Positions 27,816-61,043 of a DNA stretch of 64,000 nt are shown in pieces (positions within the stretch are counted from its first letter, which is position 1; the number at the start of each line of letters is the position of its first letter). Source of the stretch: a virus; IMG/VR virus record IMGVR_UViG_3300036770_003738, positions 20,593 through 84,592 of that record; one strand, written 5' to 3'. The notes under the pieces are model-generated. The model ran no database searches. It was not told the origin of the DNA and saw only the letters and a list, made by a program, of their open reading frames with translations. The position numbers and the translations under genes are program-made.

Positions 27816-28715
27816 ATGCATGAGATTACAAACAAAGTTGATTTTTATATTACTAATGTTTGTAATCTCACCTGCGAAGGGTGCAACAGGTTCAACAATC
27901 ACGATTTTCGAGGATGGCAACGCTGGAGTGATTATCGAGCACAGTACGAACAATGGGGTGAGTTGGTTCGATTAAAATCTGCAACTATCATGGGAGGCGA
28001 GCCTTTTTTGAATCCGACATTAGTGGATTGGATACAAGGAATCAATCGTATATTCGGCATTGACGTTCAAGTTCTCACTAACGGTACTAGGTTCAGACAG
28101 TCACAGCACTTGTACGATGCAATGTTGTATCGTTCAACACGCACAAGAGCAATGAACCACATTGGAGTAAGTCTTCATAATCTTGCAGATCAAGAAGAAA
28201 TACTTGATAGTATTCGATCATTCTTTCCTGGCTCATTTAATGAGTACCCTAAAGGACATCTAGCAAACCGTTGGGGGTCAGACTGGTATTTTGTTGACAA
28301 TAACGGAGTAATGGTCAATGTGTATGTTGTTAACAAATTTGTTAATTCGTCGGTGATCCCACAATGGCAAGTCAACGGCGGAATTAAAAAACAATACACA
28401 CTACATAATAGCGATCCAGTAGAGGCGCACCAGGCTTGCGCTTTTGCAAAATTTAAATCATATCATTTCATTCGTGGAAAATTGTACAAATGCGGTCCAG
28501 TAGCTCTCTTGCCCGAGTTTGATCAACAACATCAGCTTACAATAACTGATGCTGATAGAAATTTAATGAGTTCATATCAACCATTGTCAACTGACAACTT
28601 TGATCATTACCACAAAGAATTTTTTGATCACATAGATAAGCCTATTTCACAATGTAAATTTTGCCCTACTGAGCCTAAATTCAGAATAATTGCACCGATT
28701 CGCAAAGGGCTGTAA
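27816..28715 (+). CDS. Radical SAM protein
   Basis: The 299-aa protein has the radical SAM cluster-binding motif C-x3-C-x2-C at Cys16, Cys20 and Cys23 (CNLTCEGC), followed by MGGEPFLNP (SAM-binding GGE motif near residue 61) and VQVLTNGT. Later cysteines (CAFAKF, YKCGP and QCKFCP) may bind an auxiliary cluster of SPASM or twitch type. Such enzymes use a [4Fe-4S] cluster and SAM to make a 5'-deoxyadenosyl radical for modifying peptides, sugars or nucleic acids; the substrate is unknown. Its stop overlaps the next start (TAATG), so it is coupled with a glycosyltransferase-like gene. Confidence 0.88.
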   Translation: MHEITNKVDFYITNVCNLTCEGCNRFNNHDFRGWQRWSDYRAQYEQWGELVRLKSATIMGGEPFLNPTLVDWIQGINRIFGIDVQVLTNGTRFRQSQHLYDAMLYRSTRTRAMNHIGVSLHNLADQEEILDSIRSFFPGSFNEYPKGHLANRWGSDWYFVDNNGVMVNVYVVNKFVNSSVIPQWQVNGGIKKQYTLHNSDPVEAHQACAFAKFKSYHFIRGKLYKCGPVALLPEFDQQHQLTITDADRNLMSSYQPLSTDNFDHYHKEFFDHIDKPISQCKFCPTEPKFRIIAPIRKGL

Positions 28716-42845: not shown

Positions 42846-43988
42846 ATGAGCAATTTTTATTGTGCGGCCCCTTGGCGCGGTCTGCATATCAATCCCCAAG
42901 GAAGTATTAAGACTTGCTGTGCTGGCAATCCGCACATGCTTGGAAACCTCAACGACCTTGATATCGAACAAGCACTTAACAGCGAAAAAGCACAAGAAAT
43001 ACGTGCAAGCTTGTCTCAAGGTAAACCGCACGAGTATTGTAGTAATTGTGTTAAGGCTGAGAGGTTTGGCGCCGAAAGCGAACGTCACTGGCACAACAGA
43101 GTAAATCCTGACTTTGACCGTGCTTCAGCTGGCTCCGATTATCATTATCCTGTAATTGTGGATGTGCGATGGAACACCACATGCAATCTCAGTTGTAATT
43201 ACTGTGACCCAGCCAACAGCTCAAAATGGGCAAGTCTAAGACATATACCTTTTAAAAGTCAGAGCCGCCCATATTATGAACAAGTGTGTGACTTCCTAGA
43301 GCAACATAACAATCACATACACGAAGTTGCACTAGTTGGTGGCGAACCATTGTTGTTACCTGAAAATGAACGACTGCTAGATGTTATACCTAATGATTGT
43401 ATTGTGACCTTGATCACTAATATGAGTCAAGATTTAGAAAGCAATCGAATATTTAAGAAGCTAGCACAGCGCAAACGAGTAGGGTGGAGCATGAGCTTTG
43501 ACAACACAGGCGCACATTATGAATATGTACGTCATGGTGGCAAATGGGACCTGTTGTTGAACAACTTGCAACAGATCAAATCATTGTTTCATACACAGGG
43601 CCACTGGGGCGGCATCCATGCTGTGTACAATCTTTACAATGCAACTAAGCTGGTTGAATTCAAACAGTTTGCACAAGAACAAGGGCTATCAATAACATGG
43701 ATGAACTTGTTTGGACCCGAAGCATTGGATCCTTTTTTACACGGGCCTGACGTAGCACAGTTAGCAGCGCAACAAATAGAGATACTACAAAATCAACATG
43801 CATTTGCGCCTTCGGAGCAAGCTTTTTTTGCACAAGCACTTGAAAAATATCGCAGAGGAGACTTGCCAAAAAATCAGATTAAAAATAAATTTTGTAACTT
43901 TACTCTTGAAATTGAAAATCGATTTCATCCAGACACTAAAGGACAATTTGATCAACTTTGGCCGGAGCTAGCACATTTATGCAAATAA
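42846..43988 (+). CDS. Radical SAM protein with N-terminal cysteine (twitch/SPASM-like) region
   Basis: The 380-aa protein starts with an N-terminal cysteine domain (CAAPWRGLHINPQG, Cys6, Cys24-Cys25, then CSNC near residue 65-68), like a SPASM/twitch domain placed before the radical SAM core. The core motif CNLSCNYC has Cys113, Cys117 and Cys120, followed by VGGEPLLLP near residue 165 and WSMSFDNTG. It would use SAM and iron-sulfur clusters to modify a substrate I cannot name. It heads an overlapping cassette: its end overlaps the 2OG-oxygenase-like gene by 10 bases. It is related to the protein at 44506. Confidence 0.88.
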   Translation: MSNFYCAAPWRGLHINPQGSIKTCCAGNPHMLGNLNDLDIEQALNSEKAQEIRASLSQGKPHEYCSNCVKAERFGAESERHWHNRVNPDFDRASAGSDYHYPVIVDVRWNTTCNLSCNYCDPANSSKWASLRHIPFKSQSRPYYEQVCDFLEQHNNHIHEVALVGGEPLLLPENERLLDVIPNDCIVTLITNMSQDLESNRIFKKLAQRKRVGWSMSFDNTGAHYEYVRHGGKWDLLLNNLQQIKSLFHTQGHWGGIHAVYNLYNATKLVEFKQFAQEQGLSITWMNLFGPEALDPFLHGPDVAQLAAQQIEILQNQHAFAPSEQAFFAQALEKYRRGDLPKNQIKNKFCNFTLEIENRFHPDTKGQFDQLWPELAHLCK

Positions 43989-44524
43989 CTCCTGTCGACA
44001 ATGAACTTAATTTATTTCGTGTAGAAAATGTATTTTCTAACGAACTTGTGCAACAGGTTAAAGACACTGATTGGTTAAACTTGCCTTGGAGCAGACAACC
44101 CTATCAAGAGAATTGGAATCGTCGCCGTGTTACTGAATCCTCTATCCCGTGGATCGATCAGTGGAATTTTCAGCTCAGCACAAACTGGTCAAGACTTGAA
44201 GAACAATTAAACATAGAGATACAACCCTATTGCGGTACTGCATTTTGGATCGACGAGCCCGGGTTTGTGTGTACCATGCACACAGATGGAGAATTACCAG
44301 GTAGTTTACATTTGACTTGGCAAGGCTCAGGGACTAGTTTTTACTGGCACAATGATCCAAGTACATTGCGTTATCAGGTACCTTCGCAACCTAATGCAGG
44401 TTACATTATGATTAATTGCGAGGATTCTTCAGGATATAGAAAATTGCTATGGCACGCCATGCTAGACCCAGTGCCAGTAAATACATTTAGATTAACGTCA
44501 TACATATGGATAATACCAAAATAA
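43979..44524 (+). CDS. 2-oxoglutarate/Fe(II) oxygenase-like protein
   Basis: The 181-aa protein shows the iron-binding and co-substrate pattern of this family: His101-x-Asp103 (CTMHTDGELPG), a distal His159 (LLWHAML) and Arg171 (NTFRLTSY) twelve residues later. The core strand order (SLHLTWQGSGTSFYWH, then AGYIMIN) fits a double-stranded beta-helix. The substrate is unknown. I place the start at the ATG 43979, not the TTG 21 bases upstream. It lies between two radical SAM genes and overlaps both (10 and 19 bases), which argues for a joint pathway. Confidence 0.65.
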   Translation: MQITPVDNELNLFRVENVFSNELVQQVKDTDWLNLPWSRQPYQENWNRRRVTESSIPWIDQWNFQLSTNWSRLEEQLNIEIQPYCGTAFWIDEPGFVCTMHTDGELPGSLHLTWQGSGTSFYWHNDPSTLRYQVPSQPNAGYIMINCEDSSGYRKLLWHAMLDPVPVNTFRLTSYIWIIPK

Positions 44525-45666
44525 CCGATAGTCCTACATTTTGTGCTGCTCCGTGGACTAGCCTTAACATAGATCAAACAGGTCGCGTTAGTCCTTGTAT
44601 GCATGCATACCACGAAATAGGCAATATTAAACAGAATACTATCCAAGAGATAATAGCAGGACCTAAACTAGCATCTATTAAAGAAGCTATGAAACAAGGC
44701 ACCTGGCATGATACTTGTAGGCTATGTAAACAGAGCGAAGATACAACAGGAGTAAGTGCAAGGACTCAACGCTATTGCGATTCGCACACCCGTGATGTTA
44801 TTGACAATGATATTTCTTGGTTTGACCCCCAGCACTTTGTTGTTAATTGGAGTAACTTGTGTAATCTTAGTTGTGTATACTGTAATCCTAGCACTTCAAC
44901 CGCCTGGCAAAGCATTAAAAAGATACCTATCAATCATGTGCGTAATGATCAGAACAGCATACTAGAATTAATGCAGGACCAAGGAAAAAGTGTACAAGGA
45001 TTAGTTTTAGGAGGCGGAGAGCCGTTGTTACAAAAAGGGTTATTGGATATGTTAAAATGTCTTGACCCGCAAAAAGCTCAAGTAATGGTTACTACCAATC
45101 TCACCATAGATCTTGCTAGTAACCCTATTTACAACGAACTCAAAACTTGGCCCAATGTAGATTGGCAAGTAAGCTTTGACAATTGCACCAAGGATAAATT
45201 CGAATATGTTCGGAATGGTGCTAGTTGGGATCAATTCAAGTCTAACATTGATTTAATGAAAGCAGACGGGCAACGTGTACATGCACATCCAGCATACAGC
45301 ATCTACTGTGCATTTGATCTAGTTGAGTACTACGAATTTTGTGAAGCAAATGACTTGAACTTGTTTTGGTGCGAGCTTACTAATCCCTGGGATCTTGATG
45401 TAAGACGACTAAGCTCAGAAATTCGACAAACAGCAATAAATGAAATAGATAAAGTAACACAGCGGTGGGGGCAAATTAACGAACATAATTTAGCAGTCAG
45501 CACACTGCAAAGATATCGTGCCCAACTGATAGATAACAGTTACATATTCAACGTTAACGAATATGTGCCTGATCCGTTGTCTTGGCATCGTAATATAGAA
45601 CAAGAATTAAACAAAACTCAGCGATTTGAAGATTTGTGGCCGGGCCTGGCCAGGAGATTGAAATGA
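44506..45666 (+). CDS. Radical SAM protein with N-terminal cysteine (twitch/SPASM-like) region
   Basis: This 386-aa protein has the same layout as the one at 42846: an N-terminal CAAPWTSLNIDQTGRVSPC segment (Cys13, Cys31, then CRLC near residues 71-74), and a core CNLSCVYC with Cys119, Cys123 and Cys126, then LGGGEPLLQKG and WQVSFDNCT. The two proteins are paralogues. Two such enzymes in one cassette may act one after another, or on different positions of one substrate. It overlaps the previous gene by 19 bases and the SGNH-like gene by ATGA. Confidence 0.88.
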   Translation: MDNTKITDSPTFCAAPWTSLNIDQTGRVSPCMHAYHEIGNIKQNTIQEIIAGPKLASIKEAMKQGTWHDTCRLCKQSEDTTGVSARTQRYCDSHTRDVIDNDISWFDPQHFVVNWSNLCNLSCVYCNPSTSTAWQSIKKIPINHVRNDQNSILELMQDQGKSVQGLVLGGGEPLLQKGLLDMLKCLDPQKAQVMVTTNLTIDLASNPIYNELKTWPNVDWQVSFDNCTKDKFEYVRNGASWDQFKSNIDLMKADGQRVHAHPAYSIYCAFDLVEYYEFCEANDLNLFWCELTNPWDLDVRRLSSEIRQTAINEIDKVTQRWGQINEHNLAVSTLQRYRAQLIDNSYIFNVNEYVPDPLSWHRNIEQELNKTQRFEDLWPGLARRLK

Positions 45667-46421
45667 AAGCACCTTGGCATTTTGGAACATATCATGCTAA
45701 TACTGTACAGGAATGGTTACCTACAGATACTAAAGAAAACTTTGATCAGTTGATGCAAGACCCTGGTCATCGTGCATACTTTGCACGTCTTGGATGGGAC
45801 CAACCAGGTGCAATAACTTACAATATCAACAGCGAAGGATTTCGCTGTGATGAATTTGATTATGAAACACCATGCATGATTGCCTTGGGTTGTAGTTTTA
45901 CTCTAGGAACAGGATTACCATTGGATTCTATATGGCCTACCTTGGTAGGACAAGCTGCAGGACTAAAAGTGGCCAATCTCGCCTGGGGAGGCAACAGTTC
46001 GGATACCTGCTTCAGATTGGCAGAATACTGGATACCTCGTCTCAAGCCCCGGCTAGTCACAATGTTAGCGCCTCCAAGTAGTCGCACAGAGATATTGTTG
46101 GATAACAATCAGTATCATTTGCCAGCAGAAGTAATCATGCCTGAAACCAATTCTGCAATATTCAACAAGGGCGACACATTCTTAAAGCACTGGCAATTAA
46201 ACGACGAGAACAGCAGATTAAACCAGTTGAAAAATTGCTTGGCTATAAAGCAACTGTGCGCTGAACACAATATACCTTGCGTGATAGAATTAGTGCAGGA
46301 CCACATGCAACACAGTCGTGAAGAAATAGGCTATGCACGTGACCACATGCACGGTGGTCCTATCATACATAAACGAATTGCGGAGAAAATGCTAAATGAT
46401 TGGCGCAAAAAATACACTTGA
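45663..46421 (+). CDS. SGNH/GDSL-type hydrolase-like protein
   Basis: This 252-aa protein has GCSFTLGTGLP with the nucleophile Ser78, WGGNSSDT near residues 108-115 and a DHMHGG...IH end (Asp and His near 230-240), the SGNH block pattern. Such enzymes usually remove acyl groups from sugars or lipids. An N-terminal region of ~70 residues (WHFGTYHANTVQEWLPTDTKEN) is extra. The start is set at ATG 45663 (ATGA overlap), not an upstream CTG. It closes the radical SAM cassette and runs 26 bases into the large terminase gene. Confidence 0.72.
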   Translation: MKAPWHFGTYHANTVQEWLPTDTKENFDQLMQDPGHRAYFARLGWDQPGAITYNINSEGFRCDEFDYETPCMIALGCSFTLGTGLPLDSIWPTLVGQAAGLKVANLAWGGNSSDTCFRLAEYWIPRLKPRLVTMLAPPSSRTEILLDNNQYHLPAEVIMPETNSAIFNKGDTFLKHWQLNDENSRLNQLKNCLAIKQLCAEHNIPCVIELVQDHMQHSREEIGYARDHMHGGPIIHKRIAEKMLNDWRKKYT

Positions 46422-47982
46422 TACAGTACTTGTAAAAGCACCGCATCGCAAAGAAACTTACTCAGAGAAAGAAATTGAAGAGTTCGCTAAGTGCGCAGAC
46501 CCAGTAAATGGGCCCATGTACTTTATGGACCACTTCTTTTATATACAGCACCCCACACGCGGCAAAATGCTGTACCATCCGTTTGAGTATCAAAAGAGGC
46601 TGATCGAAAACTATCACAACAATCGTTTCTCAATTAGCCTGATGCCTCGACAAACAGGTAAGTCAACATCGGCTGCTGGTTATTTGTTGTGGTTTGCTAT
46701 GTTTGTGCCGGATGCTACTATTCTTGTTGCTGCTCACAAATACTTGGGTGCGCAGGAAATCATGCAGCGTATTCGTTACGCATACGAACTGTGCCCAAAC
46801 CATATTCGAGCAGGCGCTACTAGCTACAACAAAGGAAGTCTGGAGTTCGATAATGGATCGCGTATCGTCAGTCAAACCACTACTGAAAACACTGGTCGTG
46901 GTATGTCTATTACACTCCTGTACCTAGACGAGTTTGCGTTCGTTAGACCTACTATTGCCAGCGAGTTCTGGACTTCTATTACACCTACACTGAGTACTGG
47001 TGGTAAAGCCATTATCACATCAACTCCAAACTCAGACGAAGATCAGTTTGCGTTGATCTGGAAAGGTGCTAATAAAGTTGAGGACGAGTACGGTAATCCT
47101 AGGCCCAACGGTGTTGGTATTAATGGATTTAAAGCATATCGTGCATTCTGGAAAGAGCATCCTGATCGCGATGAAAAATGGGCAGATGAACAACGAGCAC
47201 AACTAGGTGAAGAACGATTCCGTCGAGAAATGGATTGTGAATTTGTTCAGGACGAAGAAACCCTCATCAGTCCACTAAAGCTAGTAGAGATGACCGCAAC
47301 AGATCCAATCTACAAAACAGGTCAAGTTCGGTGGTTTAAGAGGCCTGAGAAAAATAAAATTTATGTAGTTGCATTAGATCCTAGCTTGGGCACAGGTGGC
47401 GATGCTGCGGCTATACAAGTATTTGAAGCAAACTCTGCTACTCAAGTAGCAGAGTGGCGCCACAACAAAACTATTGTACCAGAACAAATCCGAATAATGA
47501 CTGATATATGCCGTCATATCAATGAGACAGTGCAAGACACAAAAAGTATCTATTATTCAGTAGAAAACAACACGTTAGGCGAAGCAGCCCTGCTTTCTAT
47601 CGAGCACTACGGAGAAGAAAACATACAAGGTTATTTTTTAAGCGATAAGTCAGTAGTTAGTTCAAGTGGTCGCAGATACCGAAAAGGTTTTACAACTACC
47701 AATAAAAGTAAGTTGTCGGCTTGTAGCAAATTCAAAACCCTAGTAGAAACCAACAAAATGGCGATCAGTAGCTCGTCCCTACTTAGCGAACTAAAGACAT
47801 TTGTTGCCAACGGATCCAGTTATGCAGCAAAACCTGGTGAGACTGATGATCTAGTAATGGCAACTCTGTTAGTGGTTAGGATGCTACAACTGTTGCAAAC
47901 GTACCACAGTGAGCTTGATACACAAATGAAAGATTTTGCAGATGAAATGGACACTCCTTTGCCTTTTATTGTAATGTTCTAA
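46396..47982 (+). CDS. gp17: Large terminase subunit (T4 gp17-like)
   Basis: This is the ATPase and nuclease that packages DNA into the prohead. The 528-aa protein has Walker A PRQTGKST at residues 84-91, Walker B YLDEF at 176-180, a coupling motif (TSTPNSDEDQF), and the nuclease residues ALDPSLGTGGD (Asp near residue 331), SVENNTLG and GETDDLVMA (Asp near residue 480). T4 gp17 is 610 aa; the shorter length is usual for aquatic relatives. The gene overlaps the preceding SGNH-like gene by 26 bases, so an essential gene is coupled in translation to a cargo cassette. Confidence 0.95.
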   Translation: MIGAKNTLDTVLVKAPHRKETYSEKEIEEFAKCADPVNGPMYFMDHFFYIQHPTRGKMLYHPFEYQKRLIENYHNNRFSISLMPRQTGKSTSAAGYLLWFAMFVPDATILVAAHKYLGAQEIMQRIRYAYELCPNHIRAGATSYNKGSLEFDNGSRIVSQTTTENTGRGMSITLLYLDEFAFVRPTIASEFWTSITPTLSTGGKAIITSTPNSDEDQFALIWKGANKVEDEYGNPRPNGVGINGFKAYRAFWKEHPDRDEKWADEQRAQLGEERFRREMDCEFVQDEETLISPLKLVEMTATDPIYKTGQVRWFKRPEKNKIYVVALDPSLGTGGDAAAIQVFEANSATQVAEWRHNKTIVPEQIRIMTDICRHINETVQDTKSIYYSVENNTLGEAALLSIEHYGEENIQGYFLSDKSVVSSSGRRYRKGFTTTNKSKLSACSKFKTLVETNKMAISSSSLLSELKTFVANGSSYAAKPGETDDLVMATLLVVRMLQLLQTYHSELDTQMKDFADEMDTPLPFIVMF

Positions 47983-53558: not shown

Positions 53559-54659
53559 ATGAGTTATTTGTTTACTAGTGAAAGCGTGAGCGAAGGCCAC
53601 CCAGACAAAGTGGCTGATGCCATCAGCGATGCTGTGCTAGATTTAGTAATGGCACAGCAAAACTCTGCACTGCGTTGTGCATGTGAAACGCTGGTTACTA
53701 CCAATAGAGTAGTTGTTGCTGGTGAGTACAAAGGCACATTAAGCGATCAGGAAGTCGAACAAACCGTTCGTGAAGTTGTGCGAGATGTGGGCTACGAACA
53801 ATCGGGATTTGATTGGCGCACACTAGAAGTTACCAATTTACTACACGGGCAAAGTGCTGACATTGCCTTGGGCACAGACTCATTTGGCGCAGGCGACCAA
53901 GGTCTAATGTTTGGTTATGCATGCAATGAAACTGATAGCTACATGCCCAGCGCCATTTACTGGAGTCACTGTATTGTAGAAGGCCTGGCGCAAGCCCGTA
54001 AACATGGTGTAATTTCCTGGCTCGGCCCTGATGCCAAGAGCCAAGTTACATTTGAGTACGACGAACTCAATCGTCCAGTGCGCATTGCCAAGGTTGTTTG
54101 CAGTACACAGCACAGAGAATCAGTAGATATTACAACAGTTCGAGTTACGGTTGAAGCAATGATTCGCAACATCCTACCCGGAAAGTATGTGGACAATGCT
54201 ACGGAATTTTATATTAATCCTACTGGTCGTTTTGTTATTGGTGGTCCAGATGGTGATACTGGTCTTACTGGCCGGAAGATTATCGTGGACACCTACGGCG
54301 GTTATAGCCCGCACGGTGGCGGCGCTTTTAGTGGAAAAGACCCCACCAAAGTAGACCGATCAGCAGCTTACATGATGCGTTACATTGCTAAAAACATTGT
54401 GGCCAAAGGACACGCACCTTGGGCAACTTGCCAGATTAGTTATGCTATTGGTATGAAGGATCCTATGAGTTTTTATATTGAAACTCAAGATGCAGCATTG
54501 AGTCGCAGACTTACCGCGCAGGTCCAAGATTTAGTTGATTTAACACCACAGGGTATTATCAAACGATTTGATCTGTTCCGACCTATCTATAGTCAGACTA
54601 CCAACTATGGACACTTTGGCAAGGCCGATCTTCCTTGGGAAAAGATTGACCTGTTCTGA
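53559..54659 (+). CDS. metK: S-adenosylmethionine synthetase
   Basis: This enzyme makes SAM from methionine and ATP. The 366-aa protein (E. coli MetK 384 aa) is clearly complete: SEGHPDK with the catalytic His14 and Asp16-Lys17, GAGDQGLMFGYA, PDAKSQVTFEYD, GPDGDTGLTGRKIIVDTYGG and HGGGAFSGKDPTKVDRSAAY, ending in GHFGKADLPWEK. The C-terminal helix is slightly shortened. It is placed 7 bases after uvsY, with AGGAAAAG before the ATG; an upstream in-frame start inside uvsY was rejected. It fits the many SAM-using enzymes elsewhere in the window. No disabling change is seen. Confidence 0.96.
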   Translation: MSYLFTSESVSEGHPDKVADAISDAVLDLVMAQQNSALRCACETLVTTNRVVVAGEYKGTLSDQEVEQTVREVVRDVGYEQSGFDWRTLEVTNLLHGQSADIALGTDSFGAGDQGLMFGYACNETDSYMPSAIYWSHCIVEGLAQARKHGVISWLGPDAKSQVTFEYDELNRPVRIAKVVCSTQHRESVDITTVRVTVEAMIRNILPGKYVDNATEFYINPTGRFVIGGPDGDTGLTGRKIIVDTYGGYSPHGGGAFSGKDPTKVDRSAAYMMRYIAKNIVAKGHAPWATCQISYAIGMKDPMSFYIETQDAALSRRLTAQVQDLVDLTPQGIIKRFDLFRPIYSQTTNYGHFGKADLPWEKIDLF

Positions 54660-54666
54660 CGCTGCG

Positions 54667-54674
54667 TTTAAATA
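54667..54674 (+). promoter_or_regulatory. Late promoter box TTTAAATA, short spacing
   Basis: TTTAAATA ends 5 bases before the ATG at 54680. No Shine-Dalgarno sequence precedes the ATG, so the predicted mRNA is leaderless. It marks the start of the glycan locus. Confidence 0.58.
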
Positions 54675-54679
54675 GCAAT

Positions 54680-55444
54680 ATGAAAATTGTTATCGTTACT
54701 GGCGGATTTGATCCAGTTCACAGCGGTCACCTGGCTTACTTTCAAGCAGCAAAGAAGTTAGGCGACAAACTAATAGTAGGACTCAATTCAGATGCATGGC
54801 TTGCCCGTAAAAAAGGCAAGCCTTTTATGCCTATGAGTGAACGTTTTGCATTGATTAGTGCATTGCGTATTGTAGATGAAGTAATCACCTACAACGACGA
54901 CGATGGTTCTAGTAGAGATGCTATAAGAAAAATCAGACTCAAGTATCCCAACGCTGAAATTATCTTTGCCAACGGCGGAGACCGTACAAAAGAAAACATT
55001 CCCGAAATGGATGTAGCCGACTCTGGCACTACATTTGTATTTGGAGTAGGCGGAGAAGACAAAAAGAATTCTAGTAGCTGGATTCTAGAAGACTGGAAAA
55101 AACCCAAGACTGAACGTACCTGGGGTTATTATCGTGTGCTACACGAAGTTGGCACAGAAACCAAACTCAAAGAACTTACAGTAGCTCCTAAGACTTGTTT
55201 GAGCATGCAACGACACGATCAACGAGCAGAGTTTTGGTTCGTAGCTGAGGGCACAGCCACAGTGTACACACTAGATGAATCGTCAACTGATCAAGAAGTT
55301 AAATGCCATCTTTCGGCGCATGAGCACACATTTATCACTTGTAAAGAATGGCATCAGTTGTGCAACGAAACAGACCAACCTCTTCGACTGATTGAGATTC
55401 AGTATGGTGCTAACTGTGTAGAAGAGGATATCGAACGCCGATGA
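54680..55444 (+). CDS. Cytidylyltransferase-cupin fusion
   Basis: The 254-aa protein has two domains. Residues 1-~130 are a nucleotidyltransferase of the glycerol-3-phosphate or RfaE type (TGGFDPVHSGHLAYF with HxGH at 14-17; FMPMSERFALISALRIVDEVI), which joins a nucleotide to a sugar or polyol phosphate. Residues ~145-254 are a cupin like phosphomannose isomerase C-terminal domains (TWGYYRVL, SMQRHDQRAEFWFVAEGTATVY, LIEIQYG). It would make an activated sugar for the transferases that follow. The stop overlaps the next start by ATGA. Confidence 0.82.
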   Translation: MKIVIVTGGFDPVHSGHLAYFQAAKKLGDKLIVGLNSDAWLARKKGKPFMPMSERFALISALRIVDEVITYNDDDGSSRDAIRKIRLKYPNAEIIFANGGDRTKENIPEMDVADSGTTFVFGVGGEDKKNSSSWILEDWKKPKTERTWGYYRVLHEVGTETKLKELTVAPKTCLSMQRHDQRAEFWFVAEGTATVYTLDESSTDQEVKCHLSAHEHTFITCKEWHQLCNETDQPLRLIEIQYGANCVEEDIERR

Positions 55445-56124
55445 AAGCTATTCCGGTTTATATTGGCTACGATCCTCGAGAAGCCATTGCATACCATACT
55501 TGTGCTAACAGTATTATTCGCAACAGCAGTAGACCTGTAGCAATTGTGCCTATTGCTTTGAATCTATTTAAAGAATACAACGAAACACACACCGACGGTA
55601 GCAATCATTTTATCTATACTCGATTCTTGGTTCCTTATCTCAACGACTTTACTGGACATGCTATCTTTATTGATGGTGATATGATTGTTCGTGGTGATAT
55701 TGCTGAACTATGGGACTTGCGTGATGTCAGCAAAGACGTACAAGTAGTCAAGCACGACTATCAAACACGTATGGCTGAAAAGTATCTAGGAGCAAAAAAT
55801 GAAAACTATCCTAGGAAAAATTGGTCTAGTGTGATCTTATGGAACTGTAACAGTTTCCCTAATAGACGTTTGATGCCTGACTTTGTACAACGATCAACTG
55901 GCGCCGAGTTGCACAGATTTACCTGGCTTGAAGATGAACGTATCGGCGAACTGCCGAGAGAATGGAACTGGTTGCCCGATGAATACGGGCCAAATACCGA
56001 CGCTAAGTTACTGCACTACACACTTGGTACGCCATGCTTTCAAGAGTTTGCTGATACTCCACAAGGCAACGAGTGGCATCGCGAGCGCATACTGACAGAA
56101 TACTGTCAACAAAGGAACATATGA
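55441..56124 (+). CDS. Glycosyltransferase (GT8-like)
   Basis: The 227-aa protein begins IPVYIGYDPREAIAYHTCANSI and has a DxD metal-binding motif at Asp78-Gly-Asp80 (AIFIDGDMIVRGDIAELWDL), then SVILWNCN and a C-terminal LLHYTLGTPCF (His of the HxxGxxK-like site). These features fit a retaining GT8-type nucleotide-sugar transferase. It is encoded within an overlapping run (ATGA at both ends) after the cytidylyltransferase-cupin. The sugar donor is not known. Confidence 0.78.
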   Translation: MKAIPVYIGYDPREAIAYHTCANSIIRNSSRPVAIVPIALNLFKEYNETHTDGSNHFIYTRFLVPYLNDFTGHAIFIDGDMIVRGDIAELWDLRDVSKDVQVVKHDYQTRMAEKYLGAKNENYPRKNWSSVILWNCNSFPNRRLMPDFVQRSTGAELHRFTWLEDERIGELPREWNWLPDEYGPNTDAKLLHYTLGTPCFQEFADTPQGNEWHRERILTEYCQQRNI

Positions 56125-57170
56125 CATTACCATTAGCTGTGGTCGAACGCTGGCCCATGGAGGAATACAAGAATCAACATCCAGATGATCTAGTAGCTGC
56201 GTTGAAACACATCAATCGGGATGCGTTGGCTTTGTATTATGAACTACAGGATCTGTACCAACAATTTCGTAATACCAATGATAAAGACGACAAGCGCCTG
56301 GACAAGTTGTTAGATGTAGAAATTCGCAATAAAGAAGAACGCCTGTTTAGACTGATTAAGTTTAACGATTATCCTGCTATGGTTATGGCGGCATATCCTG
56401 ATGCCCAATTTATAGACAGCTACACTTATAAACGTGCTCGTAAAACAATCACAGATGATATTCTAATACGTGGTATTAGTTCAGGAGATTATGCCAAGCA
56501 TGCTCTAGAAACCAATAGAAACTTTTACTTTATTGAAACCGGCTACTTAGGCAATTATCGCTGTGACAACAATCAAACAGGCAGAAAGATCTATCATCGC
56601 ATAGAAAAAAACTCCATGCAGCAGAGCCGCATTATGGATGTGCCCGACGATCGGTGGCGTGATCTATGTGCGTTCAACCCTAGTCTAAATTATCAAGGCT
56701 GGAAACGCCCTGGCGGCAAGATCTTGTTAATCATGAGCACAGACAAACCCTTTGAATATTACGGTACTACCAAGGATGCCTGGGTTGATTCAACCATTGC
56801 TACTCTAAAACAACACAGCGACAGAGAGATTGTGATCAGACAAAAAGCTGGTCGCGGCGAGCGCACCAATGACACAATCTACGACGCACTGGACCAAGAT
56901 ATCTACGCTGTAGTAACCTATAACAGTATTGCCGCAGTAGAAGCAATACAGTATGGTATTCCTGCTTTTTGCACAGCACCCACTGCAGCTAGCCCTGTAA
57001 CCACAGCAGACTTCTCACAGATAGAAAATCCTCCGAGACTGAGCGAAGACATCATTTACAAATGGTTGAGCAGTGTGGCCTATGGACAGTTTAGTTTGAA
57101 TGAAATATTGACAGGCAAGGCCTGGAGTTTGGTACAAGAAAATGAACAGCGCCCGACCTTTAGTTATTAA
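56121..57170 (+). CDS. Capsule-type glycosyltransferase-like protein, paralogue A
   Basis: The 349-aa protein shares its C-terminal half with the products at 57142 and 59476: ILLIMSTDKPFEYYG, IATLKQHSDREIVIRQKAG, VVTYNSIAAVEAIQYGIPAF, then NPPRLSEDIIYKWLSS. This layout resembles KpsS/LipB-type capsule (Kdo) transferases, whose conserved end has a Ser-x-x-(A/G)-x-E-A-x-x-x-G-x-P signature. The N-terminal region (residues ~1-90) is helical and specific to this copy. The start is ATG 56121 after AAAGGA, overlapping the previous stop by ATGA. Confidence 0.55.
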   Translation: MTLPLAVVERWPMEEYKNQHPDDLVAALKHINRDALALYYELQDLYQQFRNTNDKDDKRLDKLLDVEIRNKEERLFRLIKFNDYPAMVMAAYPDAQFIDSYTYKRARKTITDDILIRGISSGDYAKHALETNRNFYFIETGYLGNYRCDNNQTGRKIYHRIEKNSMQQSRIMDVPDDRWRDLCAFNPSLNYQGWKRPGGKILLIMSTDKPFEYYGTTKDAWVDSTIATLKQHSDREIVIRQKAGRGERTNDTIYDALDQDIYAVVTYNSIAAVEAIQYGIPAFCTAPTAASPVTTADFSQIENPPRLSEDIIYKWLSSVAYGQFSLNEILTGKAWSLVQENEQRPTFSY

Positions 57171-58092
57171 AAGCTATCTCAGCAGTTTGCCCCGGCACAT
57201 CAACGGCGAAGAAAAAATCAACGCACTCACTTTCTTTGCTGAAGGTGCTGCTCGTTGCGGCGACTCGGCTACAACTACACACAGCCAGCATTATGAATCA
57301 TGTGATGTAGGGGCAATCATTGGCAACGCATTTGATGCTAATCCGGGCAAGGTTAACTTGCCGCACTACAAGGTGCGCAAGATGGTGATGGAGCAGCAAG
57401 CAGCTCGCAACAGGTATTGGCTCAGCATTGACAGCAATGTGTTCATCTACAAGGACAAGTTAAATCCGCATAGGTATCTGCGCTACAGTTTCAACGGTGT
57501 GTTTCCTGCTACTGGTATCTATTGCAACGAATCGCCTGGAGAAGAAAATTGGGCCCGCATGAGAGCTCATTATAACATGGACTTGAAACCATGGCGCACT
57601 AAAGGCAATCATATCTTGATCACACTGCAACGTCCTATGGGTTGGAGCATGCGAGGACAAGATCTGATGAATTGGCTAGAGTCTACGTTCAAACGCATTA
57701 GACAACACAGTGATCGTCCTATTGTGATACGTTGGCACCCGGGCGACTGGAAGAACTATCCTAAGTATGGCAACATCTTGGCCAAATACAATGCTGTAGT
57801 CAGTCCACAAGAGAGACATATAACAGAAGATTTAGTAAATTGTTGGGCCTTGGTGTGTCACAATTCTACGCCCAGTGCAGTTGCTCCTATAGAAGGCATT
57901 CCTGCATTTATAACAGATGACCCTAGTTACAGCCAGGGCGGTGATGTAGCTAACACAGATTTTGCTTTGTTGGAAAAACCCAATTTACCTGACCGCGAAC
58001 AATGGATCAGGCGTCTGGCGCAGTGTCACTGGAGCTTCGAAGATCTGCGTTCAGGTCGCTGCTGGGCTCACATGCGGCAGTGGGTCAAGTGA
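57142..58092 (+). CDS. Capsule-type glycosyltransferase-like protein, paralogue B
   Basis: This 316-aa protein is the second of three related copies: ILITLQRPMGWSMRG, FKRIRQHSDRPIVIRWHPGDW, LVCHNSTPSAVAPIEGIPAFI, then NTDFALLEKPNLPDREQWIRRLAQCHWSFEDLRSG. The last stretch recurs in copy A and C. It overlaps copy A by 29 bases and, tail to tail, the FkbM gene by 8 bases. A role in transferring a charged or keto sugar is suggested only by its resemblance to the KpsS family. Confidence 0.55.
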   Translation: MNSARPLVIKSYLSSLPRHINGEEKINALTFFAEGAARCGDSATTTHSQHYESCDVGAIIGNAFDANPGKVNLPHYKVRKMVMEQQAARNRYWLSIDSNVFIYKDKLNPHRYLRYSFNGVFPATGIYCNESPGEENWARMRAHYNMDLKPWRTKGNHILITLQRPMGWSMRGQDLMNWLESTFKRIRQHSDRPIVIRWHPGDWKNYPKYGNILAKYNAVVSPQERHITEDLVNCWALVCHNSTPSAVAPIEGIPAFITDDPSYSQGGDVANTDFALLEKPNLPDREQWIRRLAQCHWSFEDLRSGRCWAHMRQWVK

Positions 58093-58699
58093 TATGCTGA
58101 TAAATGTAGTCGTGCTTGATGTTATCAACCATCTGATAGCCCCATGACAACAACAGTGCATGAGCTTCGGCTCGTGTTTCTTGTTCAACTACCAGCACAG
58201 GATAAGACAGTTTGATATACTGTTCACCGCCTTGTAACACTTGTAGTTCAAACCCTTCTACGTCAATCTTGACAAAATCTGCCGGGGGGAGATTTAGGTC
58301 ATCTAGTCGTTGTAATGGAACCTTGACATCCCCTTGGTCACTTACTCGCGTTTTTCCATAGTTATCTGGAAAACGTTGCATCATTACTGTGCCTGCTTCT
58401 GCACCTAGTGCAGTGTGAAATATTTTTGTAGCAGGAGCATTGATCTTTAGATATTCGCAGTGCAGTTCTATTGGTTCGATAGCAAAGTTTTGTTTGAATT
58501 GTTGTTCTAGTGTGTGACTCCATAAGCCAAAGTTAGCACCTATGTCCACGCTGACCCTGAATTGTTTAACATAGCTCAGTGCTAGTCTGCGCACAGGTCC
58601 TTGATATTCTGCTGGTTCGCCTACTTTGGCATTGCGTTCAATAAACTTGCTGAAATGATCTTCGTCGTCAGGCAACCAGTAGTTGTGCAATTGTTTCAT
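58085..58699 (-). CDS. FkbM-family methyltransferase
   Basis: The 204-aa protein has the SAM-binding VDIGANFGLW motif at residues 51-60, an acidic loop (FAIEPIELHCEYL), and the FkbM signature DFVKIDVEGFELQVLQGG. Such enzymes methylate hydroxyl groups on sugars or polyketides. It is encoded with the GT-like gene upstream on the minus strand (4-base overlap), so methylation of a phage or host glycan is likely. It consumes SAM, which the phage-encoded synthetase could supply. Confidence 0.85.
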   Translation of the reverse strand: MKQLHNYWLPDDEDHFSKFIERNAKVGEPAEYQGPVRRLALSYVKQFRVSVDIGANFGLWSHTLEQQFKQNFAIEPIELHCEYLKINAPATKIFHTALGAEAGTVMMQRFPDNYGKTRVSDQGDVKVPLQRLDDLNLPPADFVKIDVEGFELQVLQGGEQYIKLSYPVLVVEQETRAEAHALLLSWGYQMVDNIKHDYIYQHIT

Positions 58700-59481
58700 T
58701 GGTATTTGCCTTGCTCGTGTTTGAATATATCTAGCTCTTTGCGTTTGCCTTTGGCGCTCCAGATTGCGCTTTCGGGTCGCATAGCCCAGTCAATATAGCT
58801 CATAGGCAGCAAACCTTTACGATACAATGGAACCAATCTGTCCAGTATCACTTGGTCCAAGAACCAATAAAGATCATTCTTTTCTATGCTGGATTTCAAG
58901 TCACTAGCATAATGCTGCAAGAAATCGTGACTGCGCGGCCGTCCGTTGAACAACACAGCACCGGCTAGATGTGTGCCATCTTTGGGTTTTTCGTACAAAT
59001 AAAAATCTGACTGCCCTAGGTCATGCTCAAACGGTCCGCGCACCAAACCGTCTACATCAATGGCCAAACAACGCTGACCTAACTGTAGCACTTGAGCTAG
59101 ACGCACAAATCTGGCACAAGCATAATAGGTCTGGCGAATCAACTTTTCTGCTTCAACTGGTCCACCGACTCGTGCCTTTTTGCTCATTTGTTGTTGACGA
59201 GGGTTCTCAAATACAGTGCGGTTGATCCAGTATTGTGCAATTTCTGCCCAGTTGATCTGGTCAAGGTATTCGTATGTGCAACTTACACCGGTTTGATTGC
59301 AAAAATCAATCTGGTCTGGTCTTGGGTTGTAGATGTGGATATGGACTCCGTAATTAGGAGTGTTGTTTCGCACACTACGAATTAACGGGCGAGCATGAAC
59401 GTCAAAATAAACAGGGTCAGCAGCGGCGTACAAAAAGAATTTGTCTTGTGCTAGCTTTCCTTCTAGTGGTGGCATATGCAT
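58696..59481 (-). CDS. Putative glycosyltransferase (GT-A, DxD)
   Basis: The 261-aa protein has CLAIDVDGLVRGPFEHDLG, with a DxD at Asp142 and Asp144, and earlier HARPLIRSVRNNTPNYGVHIHIYN typical of a GT8-like Rossmann start; the later stretch HLAGAVLFNGRP and WFLDQVILDRL suits the substrate side. I chose the ATG at 59481 rather than 59475 because a GTTAAATA late box ends 6 bases before it. Its start codon overlaps that of the divergent gene at 59476. The FkbM gene follows it. Confidence 0.65.
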   Translation of the reverse strand: MHMPPLEGKLAQDKFFLYAAADPVYFDVHARPLIRSVRNNTPNYGVHIHIYNPRPDQIDFCNQTGVSCTYEYLDQINWAEIAQYWINRTVFENPRQQQMSKKARVGGPVEAEKLIRQTYYACARFVRLAQVLQLGQRCLAIDVDGLVRGPFEHDLGQSDFYLYEKPKDGTHLAGAVLFNGRPRSHDFLQHYASDLKSSIEKNDLYWFLDQVILDRLVPLYRKGLLPMSYIDWAMRPESAIWSAKGKRKELDIFKHEQGKYQ

Positions 59482-60339
59482 ATTAAATATTTAACTGTGA
59501 TCAAAACACTTGCTTATTTTCCACAACAGGTTGCACTAAATGGCAATGTTCCTTTTAATGCGCTGTTAGATTCTGCCCAAGCAGCAGGCATACAAACAAA
59601 AGAAAACTCATATACAGCAGATGCTGCAGTGATATGGAGTGTGCTATGGCACGGTCGCCTTAAAACAAATCAAGCGGTATACGAACATTATAGGCAACAA
59701 AACAAACCAGTAATCATTGTTGAAATAGGTGCATTGTATCGTGGACAAACTTGGAAAGTGTCAGTAAACAACGTCACTGCTGAAGGCTTTTATGGTCACC
59801 AAGATCAACTGGACTGGGATCGCGCTAGGAAACTAAAAATTAGCCTAGCGCAACAAACGCAAACAACTCCTCATGTGATAATTGCATTGCAGCATTCTCA
59901 CAGCTTGCAAGTGGCCAGCATTGCAGACATGACTCAATGGGTGAGTTGCACAGTCGACAAACTCAAAACAGTCACTGATCGCCCTATAGTGGTACGACCA
60001 CATCCTAGAAGCAGATGTGCATTGCCTCCGGGTGTAACAGTAGAGCAGCCACAAAAGTTGGCAGGAACTTATGACAGCTACAACATGCATTTTGATTGTC
60101 ATGCAGTAGTTAACTATAATTCGGGCCCAGGTATTCAAGCAGCTATAGCAGGTGTGCGGCCCTTGGTAGATTCAACCAGTTTGGCTGCGCCGGTTGGTGT
60201 TAACTGGACAAACATTGAACAACCTTACACAGTAGATCGAGATCGCTGGCTAACCGAAATTTGCCACACCGAATACACAGTAGAAGAAATACAAAGAGGA
60301 TTATGGCTAAACAGACTAGCACCAGCATTGACGGCGTGA
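59476..60339 (+). CDS. Capsule-type glycosyltransferase-like protein, paralogue C
   Basis: This 287-aa protein is the third related copy: VIIALQHSHSLQVASIADM, KLKTVTDRPIVVRPHPRSR, AVVNYNSGPGIQAAIAGVRPLVDS, then WTNIEQPYTVDRDRWLTEICHTEYTVEEIQRG. The PIVVRPHPR and NSGPG-x-x-A-A-x-x-G-x-x-P layout is the closest of the three to KpsS-like Kdo transferases. It starts within the start of the opposite-strand gene (CATATGCAT) and overlaps the next gene by 37 bases. Confidence 0.58.
   Translation: MHIKYLTVIKTLAYFPQQVALNGNVPFNALLDSAQAAGIQTKENSYTADAAVIWSVLWHGRLKTNQAVYEHYRQQNKPVIIVEIGALYRGQTWKVSVNNVTAEGFYGHQDQLDWDRARKLKISLAQQTQTTPHVIIALQHSHSLQVASIADMTQWVSCTVDKLKTVTDRPIVVRPHPRSRCALPPGVTVEQPQKLAGTYDSYNMHFDCHAVVNYNSGPGIQAAIAGVRPLVDSTSLAAPVGVNWTNIEQPYTVDRDRWLTEICHTEYTVEEIQRGLWLNRLAPALTA
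59488..59495 (-). promoter_or_regulatory. Late promoter box GTTAAATA, short spacing
   Basis: On the minus strand GTTAAATA ends 6 bases before the ATG at 59481, without a ribosome site. It lies inside the coding sequence of the divergent gene at 59476 and within the palindrome ATTAAATATTTAA (59482-59494 region). Confidence 0.5.
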
Positions 60340-61043
60340 CCGACTGTGCATGTGTGATTCACAGCACAGGATACGACTGGACTTATGTTGACCGACTATA
60401 CAGCATGTTGAGTCGTGCACTACCTGGCGGGATTCGCATGCATGTGTACACTGAAAAATCAAGACCTGTGCCTTCACACATGATCAAACATGTACTGCAT
60501 GAATGGCCTGGACTCGGCGGCCCCAAACGCAGCTGGTGGTACAAAATGCAATTGTTTAACCCTGCACATTTTCGTGGTCAACTGTTGTACTTTGATCTGG
60601 ACTGTGTGATTTTGCGTGACCTGAGTTGGATTACTTCACTTGATCGCAATTTGTTCTGGGGCATTAGAGATTTTAAATATCTTCAGCGCCCTGGCTACGC
60701 AGGCATTAACAGCAGTACCATGTGGTTCAACACCGAACGTTATGCCTGGCTCTGGGACCGATTCAATAGTGTGCCCATTGAGCAAGCACGGTCTGGATGT
60801 CAAGGTGATCAAGACTACATCACAAAAAACGTTGACCTTAGTCAGCTGAGATTTTTTGAAGATCGTTATTTCCAAAGCTATCGCTGGCAGTGTCTAGACG
60901 GAGGATATGACTTTAGATATCGTCGATATCATAAACCTGGCACAGGCGTGCAAATAGCCGGAGATACTGCAGTGGTAGTGTTCCATGGCAGTCCCAACCC
61001 ACATCAAGTACACGACCCCGAAATAGTAAAACTTTGGTGCTAG
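60303..61043 (+). CDS. Putative glycosyltransferase (GT-A, DxD)
   Basis: The 246-aa protein has LLYFDLDCVILRDLSW with a DxD at Asp98 and Asp100, preceded by YDWTYVDRLYSMLSRALPGGIRMHVYTE, and ends in VVVFHGSPNPHQVHDPEIVKLW, where FHGSPNPH resembles the C-terminal His motif of GT8-like enzymes. The start is ATG 60303 with AGAGGA before it, not the Met 14 codons upstream. It overlaps paralogue C by 37 bases and closes the glycan locus. Confidence 0.72.
   Translation: MAKQTSTSIDGVTDCACVIHSTGYDWTYVDRLYSMLSRALPGGIRMHVYTEKSRPVPSHMIKHVLHEWPGLGGPKRSWWYKMQLFNPAHFRGQLLYFDLDCVILRDLSWITSLDRNLFWGIRDFKYLQRPGYAGINSSTMWFNTERYAWLWDRFNSVPIEQARSGCQGDQDYITKNVDLSQLRFFEDRYFQSYRWQCLDGGYDFRYRRYHKPGTGVQIAGDTAVVVFHGSPNPHQVHDPEIVKLWC

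Follow-up and report, generated by a model that had tools for sequence, protein, structure and literature searches.

A phage glycan locus with three paralogs of predicted KpsC-type fold and exchangeable cargo genes

A 64,000-nucleotide stretch of viral DNA (hereafter, the window; positions 20593-84592 of the 84,592-base virus record IMGVR_UViG_3300036770_003738) carries a locus of glycan-related genes, here named A to H, at 54680-61043. Our favored reading, held at slightly better than even odds (about 0.55), is that these genes are expressed late and equip virion proteins, in the cytosol, with a short methylated glycan. Three of the proteins, C, D and G, are paralogs with a predicted KpsC-type double Rossmann fold, D by its structural model and C and G by their sequence homology to D. 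All genes named in the initial annotation were located in this region, with a gene for S-adenosylmethionine (SAM) synthetase directly upstream. The nucleotidyltransferase-cupin (A), the three DxD transferases (B, F and H) and the FkbM methyltransferase (E) that it had read from the sequence were all recovered by family or motif matches.

Fold, spread and catalytic motifs of C, D and G

The genes for C (56121-57170, with its start codon at 56121), D (57142-58092) and G (59476-60339) all lie on the plus strand. Their products are alike mainly in the C-terminal half, as first proposed, with BLASTP values of 4e-14 for C and D, 6e-10 for C and G, and 5e-14 for D and G. The identity of 24-27% among them rules out a recent tandem duplication as the source of the three copies. 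An alignment of 135 family members contained five invariant columns; it comprised the three window proteins and, of their non-identical relatives, 53 of 61 for D, 46 of 59 for C and 33 of 34 for G.

C, D and G matched no Pfam or PHROG family, the only matches being of E 0.02 or worse. The comparison with the KpsS/KpsC family that the initial annotation had suggested was run against PF05159 (Capsule_synth, KpsC/KpsS) and found no window protein at E 1, none of the 135 aligned members at 0.05, and nothing in G000 at E 10 (relatives' contigs and records carry working labels, such as L007, L101 and G004). A weak match to DUF6716, a putative glycosyltransferase family, was detected in 23 of the 135 members (best 7.3e-5) and is a hint only. 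Profiles were also compared with solved structures: one (A1) gave chance-level matches only (best 0.044, to Elongator; WbbB 0.88), the other (A2) a sole match to an aldo-keto reductase (0.013), and a fold search was preferred.

The AlphaFold2 model of D (predicted local distance difference test score, pLDDT, 93.8) had KpsC as its best Foldseek match (8.8e-7). With a second structure aligner, the top 15 rows were all KpsC, WbbB or KrkA (Z 12.6-14.4), and the next other protein scored 10.6. The Z scores were 14.4 for KpsC, 13.1 for WbbB and 12.6 for KrkA, with root-mean-square deviations of 3.8-4.8 over 240-263 residues. The initial assignment to KpsS/KpsC-type transferases of 3-deoxy-D-manno-oct-2-ulosonic acid (Kdo) was thus right in fold, since the nearest structures of the D model are KpsC, WbbB and KrkA, and failed in the missing PF05159 match and the absent catalytic Asp. 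Predicted viral proteins nearest the D fold include K4JVV7 of CcrColossus and four proteins of Tetraselmis virus 1. The latter (BFVD A0A2P0VP54, A0A2P0VNK4, A0A2P0VP74 and A0A2P0VP72) have the same predicted fold as D, and two of them are named capsule polysaccharide biosynthesis protein.

When C, D and G were each searched by tblastn against 50,697 phage records, each recovered 16 records with one and the same composition: Pelagibacter phage Mosig, ct7QV12 and 14 giant phages of Caulobacter, of which 12 are named Caulobacter and 2 Bertelyvirus. Single-sequence scans of viral contigs yielded 78 loci for D, 16 for C and 6 for G. We found no description of KpsC-type transferases in phages in the open-access literature.

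According to the available text of PMC12887879 and PMC10148158, retaining Kdo transferases are defined by the Gln and the nucleophilic Asp of a QXXXD motif and by a (K/R)XHP motif that binds cytidine monophosphate (CMP), and KpsC, WbbB and KrkA differ from the other retaining transferases in that they have been shown to work through a covalent adduct of sugar and enzyme. In the phage family, the Gln (Gln163 in D) and the HP motif (RxHP in D, RPHP in G) were each present in 54 of 54 D and 34 of 34 G sequences and in 0 of 47 C sequences. The column of the QXXXD Asp (167) was occupied by Gly in 53 of 54 D sequences, by Ser in 34 of 34 G sequences, and by Pro (n = 44) or Ser (n = 3) in the 47 C sequences. 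The counts given below for gene order, cargo and the upstream motif of relatives exclude second loci per contig, the three loci of the window's record and four loci of named phages. Within the family the column is correctly read, because one relative (L007:883-1821, QLPGD) and ct7QV12 (QVPQD) show the full motif in it. Its link to KpsC numbering was made by hand alignment together with the members in which QXXXD is visible; placement of the KpsC peptide by mafft/HMMER put position 160 on unrelated residues in four of four trials. The 135-member alignment contained no invariant Glu, the residue that acts as general base in Kdo transferases. One region (L007:75-3550) holds four consecutive KpsC-like frames, a single one of which has the full QXXXD (QLPGD), and an 82% identical MetK lies upstream in its record.

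From these motifs, D and G look like proteins with a CMP-type donor site that either do without the known adduct route or have lost their activity. In the latter case, C, D and G would descend from Kdo transferases, be catalytically dead and serve as scaffolds or in acceptor binding, and B, F and H alone would transfer sugars. The absence of the nucleophilic Asp from all three, and of Gln and HP from C as well, fits such decay. Set against it, Gln163, RxHP, Asp55 (50 of 54 D, 47 of 47 C and 34 of 34 G) and an NS motif (kept almost without exception) are near-invariant over the 54 D and 34 G sequences, and D is well conserved (68-89% identity over its 78 loci); we consider wholesale inactivity quite improbable.

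Conserved gene order and exchangeable cargo

The locus runs from the SAM synthetase gene (MetK) through A-B-C-D on the plus strand, with ends that overlap or touch, to E and F on the minus strand and G and H on the plus strand. Among relatives, the order A-B-C-D ... F-G is conserved and the cargo between D and F differs. C was directly upstream of D and overlapped it in 77 of the 77 loci with an upstream frame (79 loci bear D), F was on the strand opposite to D in 47 of 47, and G came next, divergently oriented, in 44 of 46. The gap between D and F contains 0 to 5.8 kb of cargo, which in the window is the methyltransferase gene E alone (58085-58699, minus strand; PF05050 3.9e-12, 47.1 bits against a cut-off of 22.7; TIGR01444 73.2 bits against 37.7). 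Across 47 contigs, which form 32 clusters at 98% D identity, 17 carry a UDP-GlcNAc 4,6-dehydratase, an RmlD-like reductase and a WecB-type 2-epimerase, together with methyltransferases and glycosyltransferases (GTs); we take the first three to be a pathway of the UDP-L-FucNAc/L-QuiNAc kind. The cargo of other contigs includes GT25, GT2, a nucleoside diphosphate (NDP)-sugar dehydrogenase and a TylF-type methyltransferase. At least one methyltransferase was present in the cargo of 31 of the 47 contigs, and no cargo frame was picked in 10.

Phages with near-identical flanking genes carry different cargo. UvsX is 98.3% identical between contigs with FkbM (L018-L020) and one with the dehydratase set (L088), and the cargo likewise differs in a pair whose clamp loaders are 97.7% identical. 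The D-F cargo thus undergoes cassette exchange, as do the serotype loci of bacteria. Capsule and O-antigen loci of bacteria have the same conserved flanks, a swapped middle, and an NDP-sugar pathway with GTs in the cargo; the phage locus differs from them in that its flanks are transferases and that no Wzx, ABC-2 exporter or initiating transferase was found.

The remaining genes encode further putative sugar-handling enzymes. A (54680-55444, plus strand) joins an HldE/cytidylyltransferase-like nucleotidyltransferase (CTP_transf_like 8e-15) to a phosphomannose isomerase-type cupin (7e-21), and in its first half it shares 51% identity with a protein of cyanophage S-SSM7. The suggestion of a cytidylyl step suited to CMP- or CDP-sugars was revised, as A resembles HldE, a heptose-1-phosphate adenylyltransferase, more closely than CMP-sugar synthetases; HldE was its best NCBIfam match (TIGR02199), at 78.8 bits and under the cut-off of 181.5. 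B (55441-56124, plus strand) is a GT8-type glycosyltransferase (PF01501 32.3 bits, cut-off 24.3, E 1e-7) with the DxD motif D78GD. F (58696-59481, minus strand) is predicted to be a GT-A transferase with a GT8/GT6-like fold: the structures closest to its model (pLDDT 94.3) are GlyE (Z 15.9), glycogenin (Z 15.7) and LgtC (Z 15.2), and D142 and D144 of its DxD motif (D142VD) are invariant in 35 sequences. H (60303-61043, plus strand) is a DxD glycosyltransferase (D98LD; phrog_1962, PHROG glycosyltransferase, 6.9e-19) that more likely starts at ATG 60303 than at TTG 60261. F and H matched no Pfam family at E 1.

MetK (53559-54659, plus strand) is full-length by a curated model (TIGR01034 467.6 bits, cut-off 309.4) and has three Pfam domains; copies were detected in 2 of 10 records, one of them in G005 (82%), and a role in methyl-donor supply is likely. 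The slot between uvsX and A, which MetK fills in this phage, holds distant radical-SAM homologs in many relatives (for example L013, L018 and L050). Three radical-SAM proteins are encoded elsewhere in the window (27816-28715, 42846-43988 and 44506-45666), two of them with the motif TAAATA directly upstream.

Late-type motif, sugar donor and site of the glycan

TAAATA, which we take to be the core of the T4 late promoter, occurs 11 nt before A (54669-54674, plus strand) and 12 nt before F (59488-59493, minus strand). The 64 kb hold 28 copies on both strands, and 13 of the 51 window genes have one within 60 bases upstream (expected 0.6), including two fiber genes, the neck, sheath, tube and a structural protein gene, two radical-SAM genes, A and F. 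Among distinct upstream sequences of relatives, the motif preceded A in 36 of 37 (at 10-11 bases), F in 31 of 31, G in 24 of 35 and B in 11 of 54; the corresponding counts were 3 of 25 for H, 1 of 34 for uvsX, 0 of 17 for ssb and 0 of 15 for the clamp loader, with 1.3% expected by chance. None was present before C (0 of 51) or D (0 of 55) in these relatives. The glycan operons were probably switched on late, with the virion genes, judging from this distribution. The distance to the start codon was 10-13 bases for A, F, 38689, 42846 and 48019, and 23-33 bases for the sheath, tube, neck and one fiber gene. The short spacing suggests leaderless messages, and there are possibly two classes of late-type gene, one of them leaderless.

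Transmembrane-like stretches were absent from the nine proteins of the locus (highest 19-residue mean hydropathy, 1.05). A flippase (PF01943), an ABC exporter (PF01061) and a lipid-initiating transferase (PF02397) were each detected in 0 of 10 records; among 14 positive controls, they were detected in 13, 14 and 9, respectively. In the Caulobacter phages CcrColossus and C1, family members lie just behind the tail genes and ahead of the lysis genes, accompanied by FkbM or GTs.

The pathway we favor would proceed as follows. A, with host enzymes, would activate a sugar, and residues would be added in turn by B, F and H (GT-A, DxD) and by D and G, which combine a KpsC fold with the HP motif found in users of CMP-sugars. 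D and G may draw on CMP-Kdo of the host, or on a similar CMP-sugar, without forming the covalent Asp adduct known from KpsC, WbbB and KrkA. C, which lacks the donor motifs, may use another donor or pair with D, whose gene is always overlapped by its own. E would methylate the sugar, with SAM boosted by MetK, and the acceptor would be a tail fiber or capsid protein. Exchange of the D-F cargo would then change the glycan type between sister phages, much as 'region 2' exchange does for O-antigens and capsules in bacteria.

A hint on the donor came from a scan of bacterial genomes with a family profile, in which 3 of 15 candidate stretches were relatives. One of them (L101, NZHE01000029.1), titled a Rickettsiales metagenome-assembled genome (MAG), is the virus contig UViG_2823573081 (L106, in IMG/VR), and the matches in other 'bacterial' MAGs (L102 and L103) may likewise be virus contigs. 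Besides UvsX (74%), Ssb and four family members, L101 encodes an ortholog of the window's gene 53099 and a KdsB-like CMP-Kdo synthetase; the latter scored 196.7 bits with NF003952 (cut-off 193) and stayed under the cut-offs of four related models. When viral contigs were scanned with this KdsB, three of 16 stretches were confirmed as relatives (L106, L107 and L108); in each, some 25 bases at the 3' end of a family gene are shared with the KdsB-like gene. These amount to two independent cases, as L106 is the contig of L101 itself and L107 is 97% alike; L108 is 68% alike. In L106 and L108, TAAATA precedes both the family/KdsB operon and the homolog of B.

The leading alternative is that the enzymes modify host lipopolysaccharide (LPS) or capsule during infection, for instance on nascent core in the cytosol with export by the host, and thereby exclude competing phages. 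It agrees with the LPS-type character of the Kdo-type, GT8, GT25 and HldE-like enzymes and with the published reading for pelagimyophages and cyanophages in the available parts of PMC7029224 and PMC9602691, and LPS-core enzymes would need no phage-encoded flippase. It fits poorly with a late-type motif common to the glycan operons and the virion genes, with the tail-gene neighborhood of the family in Caulobacter phages, and with the lack of an exporter or lipid-initiating transferase in the 10 records. We regard it as a serious possibility and, on balance, an unlikely one. Because the virion-gene motif stands on the operons and no membrane or export part was found, decoration of the virion is favored, being about twice as likely as a host-surface role.

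A further alternative holds that the transferases act on the phage DNA and glycosylate its modified bases, like the glucosyltransferases of T4. Such activity is known for phage glycosyltransferases (PMC12619734, in the portion available), and the glycan genes are flanked by uvsX and a clamp-loader-like gene. Exchangeable nucleotide-sugar pathways, methyltransferases and a late-type motif would suit DNA modification badly, and PF00303 (thymidylate synthase/hydroxymethylase) was present in only 1 of 10 records (G004). Tet_JBP was detected in 0 of 10 records, a void test, since its control also matched nowhere. We rate this explanation as very improbable.

Several points weigh against the glycosylation of virions, or against Kdo as its donor. 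The locus of this phage is placed among replication genes and not tail genes, and loss of the QXXXD Asp may mean that the transferases are inactive. TAAATA is a putative late-promoter core of T4-like type, no exact TATAAATA is present in the window, and the window's ssb also has a TAAATA 55 nt upstream. The 10 searched records may all be fragments, and the export argument is weak against LPS-core modification because cytosolic LPS-core enzymes also lack membrane spans. For related phages, modification of the host O-chain is favored in the accessible text of PMC7029224. A KdsB-type gene (PF02348) was detected in 0 of 10 records nearer to the window, and CMP-Kdo would therefore have to come from the host. 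None of the four KpsC-like proteins beside KdsB in L101 has QXXXD. Cyanophage S-SCSM2R has KdsA and KdsB and no family member in the 24.7 kb examined, and KpsC-like genes were likewise not found in L110 and L111, which weakens a general link to Kdo. In S-SCSM2R (L109; PQ898602.1 211918-213339), kdsB adjoins kdsA near a 39% homolog of B, among many glycosyltransferases.

Phage lineage, known systems and implications

The window encodes genes typical of a large T4-related myovirus, including head, sheath, tubes, terminase, UvsX and Ssb. Its terminase large subunit (46396-47979) has its closest counterparts in Pseudomonas jumbo phages of the PA5oct/Paride group (54% identity) and is 50.5% identical to that of Sinorhizobium phage Phosso. 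Given this proximity to the PA5oct group, the 84.6-kb record probably represents part of a jumbo genome. The 'moraphages' of PMC12619734 were set aside as its lineage because the terminase is nearest to the PA5oct group and PA5oct is absent from the available text of that paper. Window positions 40000-64000 had no DNA-level match among cultured phages.

The locus belongs to the glycan islands of phages. Pelagimyophages and cyanophages have clusters of rfaE-type, GT8 and other GT genes in T4-like genomes (PMC7029224 and PMC9602691, in the parts available); there they are read as host LPS modification, and those parts describe neither a KpsC-fold family nor cassette exchange. The available text of PMC7029224 also reports that late promoters were not found in pelagimyophages. 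In mycobacteriophages, virion glycosylation places glycans on the capsid and tail tube (Freeman 2023, as cited in the portion of PMC12619734 consulted); the glycan proposed here is predicted from genes. Compared with the retaining beta-Kdo transferases KpsC (GT107), WbbB (GT99) and KrkA (GT140), D shares the fold over its whole length and D and G share the Gln and (K/R)XHP, and the differences are the absent QXXXD Asp in C, D and G, the missing PF05159 match, an identity of about 10%, and the lack of any capsule export genes found.

What is new here is a nucleophile-less, three-copy family of KpsC fold and a serotype-like cassette under a late-type motif. A more far-reaching proposal would combine the two: D and G as founders of a new transferase family that, with a KpsC fold and no covalent Asp nucleophile, takes its sugar from CMP-Kdo or a sister CMP-sugar, in a widespread lineage of large phages that makes a cassette-exchanged virion glycan and so has phage 'serotypes'. 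In this full form, we hold the proposal to be tentative and rather doubtful.

A large natural family that has the KpsC fold and the donor motif and lacks the nucleophile would offer a test of how covalent-adduct chemistry came about or disappeared. Should the glycan sit on the virion, this phage group would have its own exchangeable sugar type, as is best known from bacteria; this would bear on adsorption and on the annotation of such islands, which are often read as host LPS modification.

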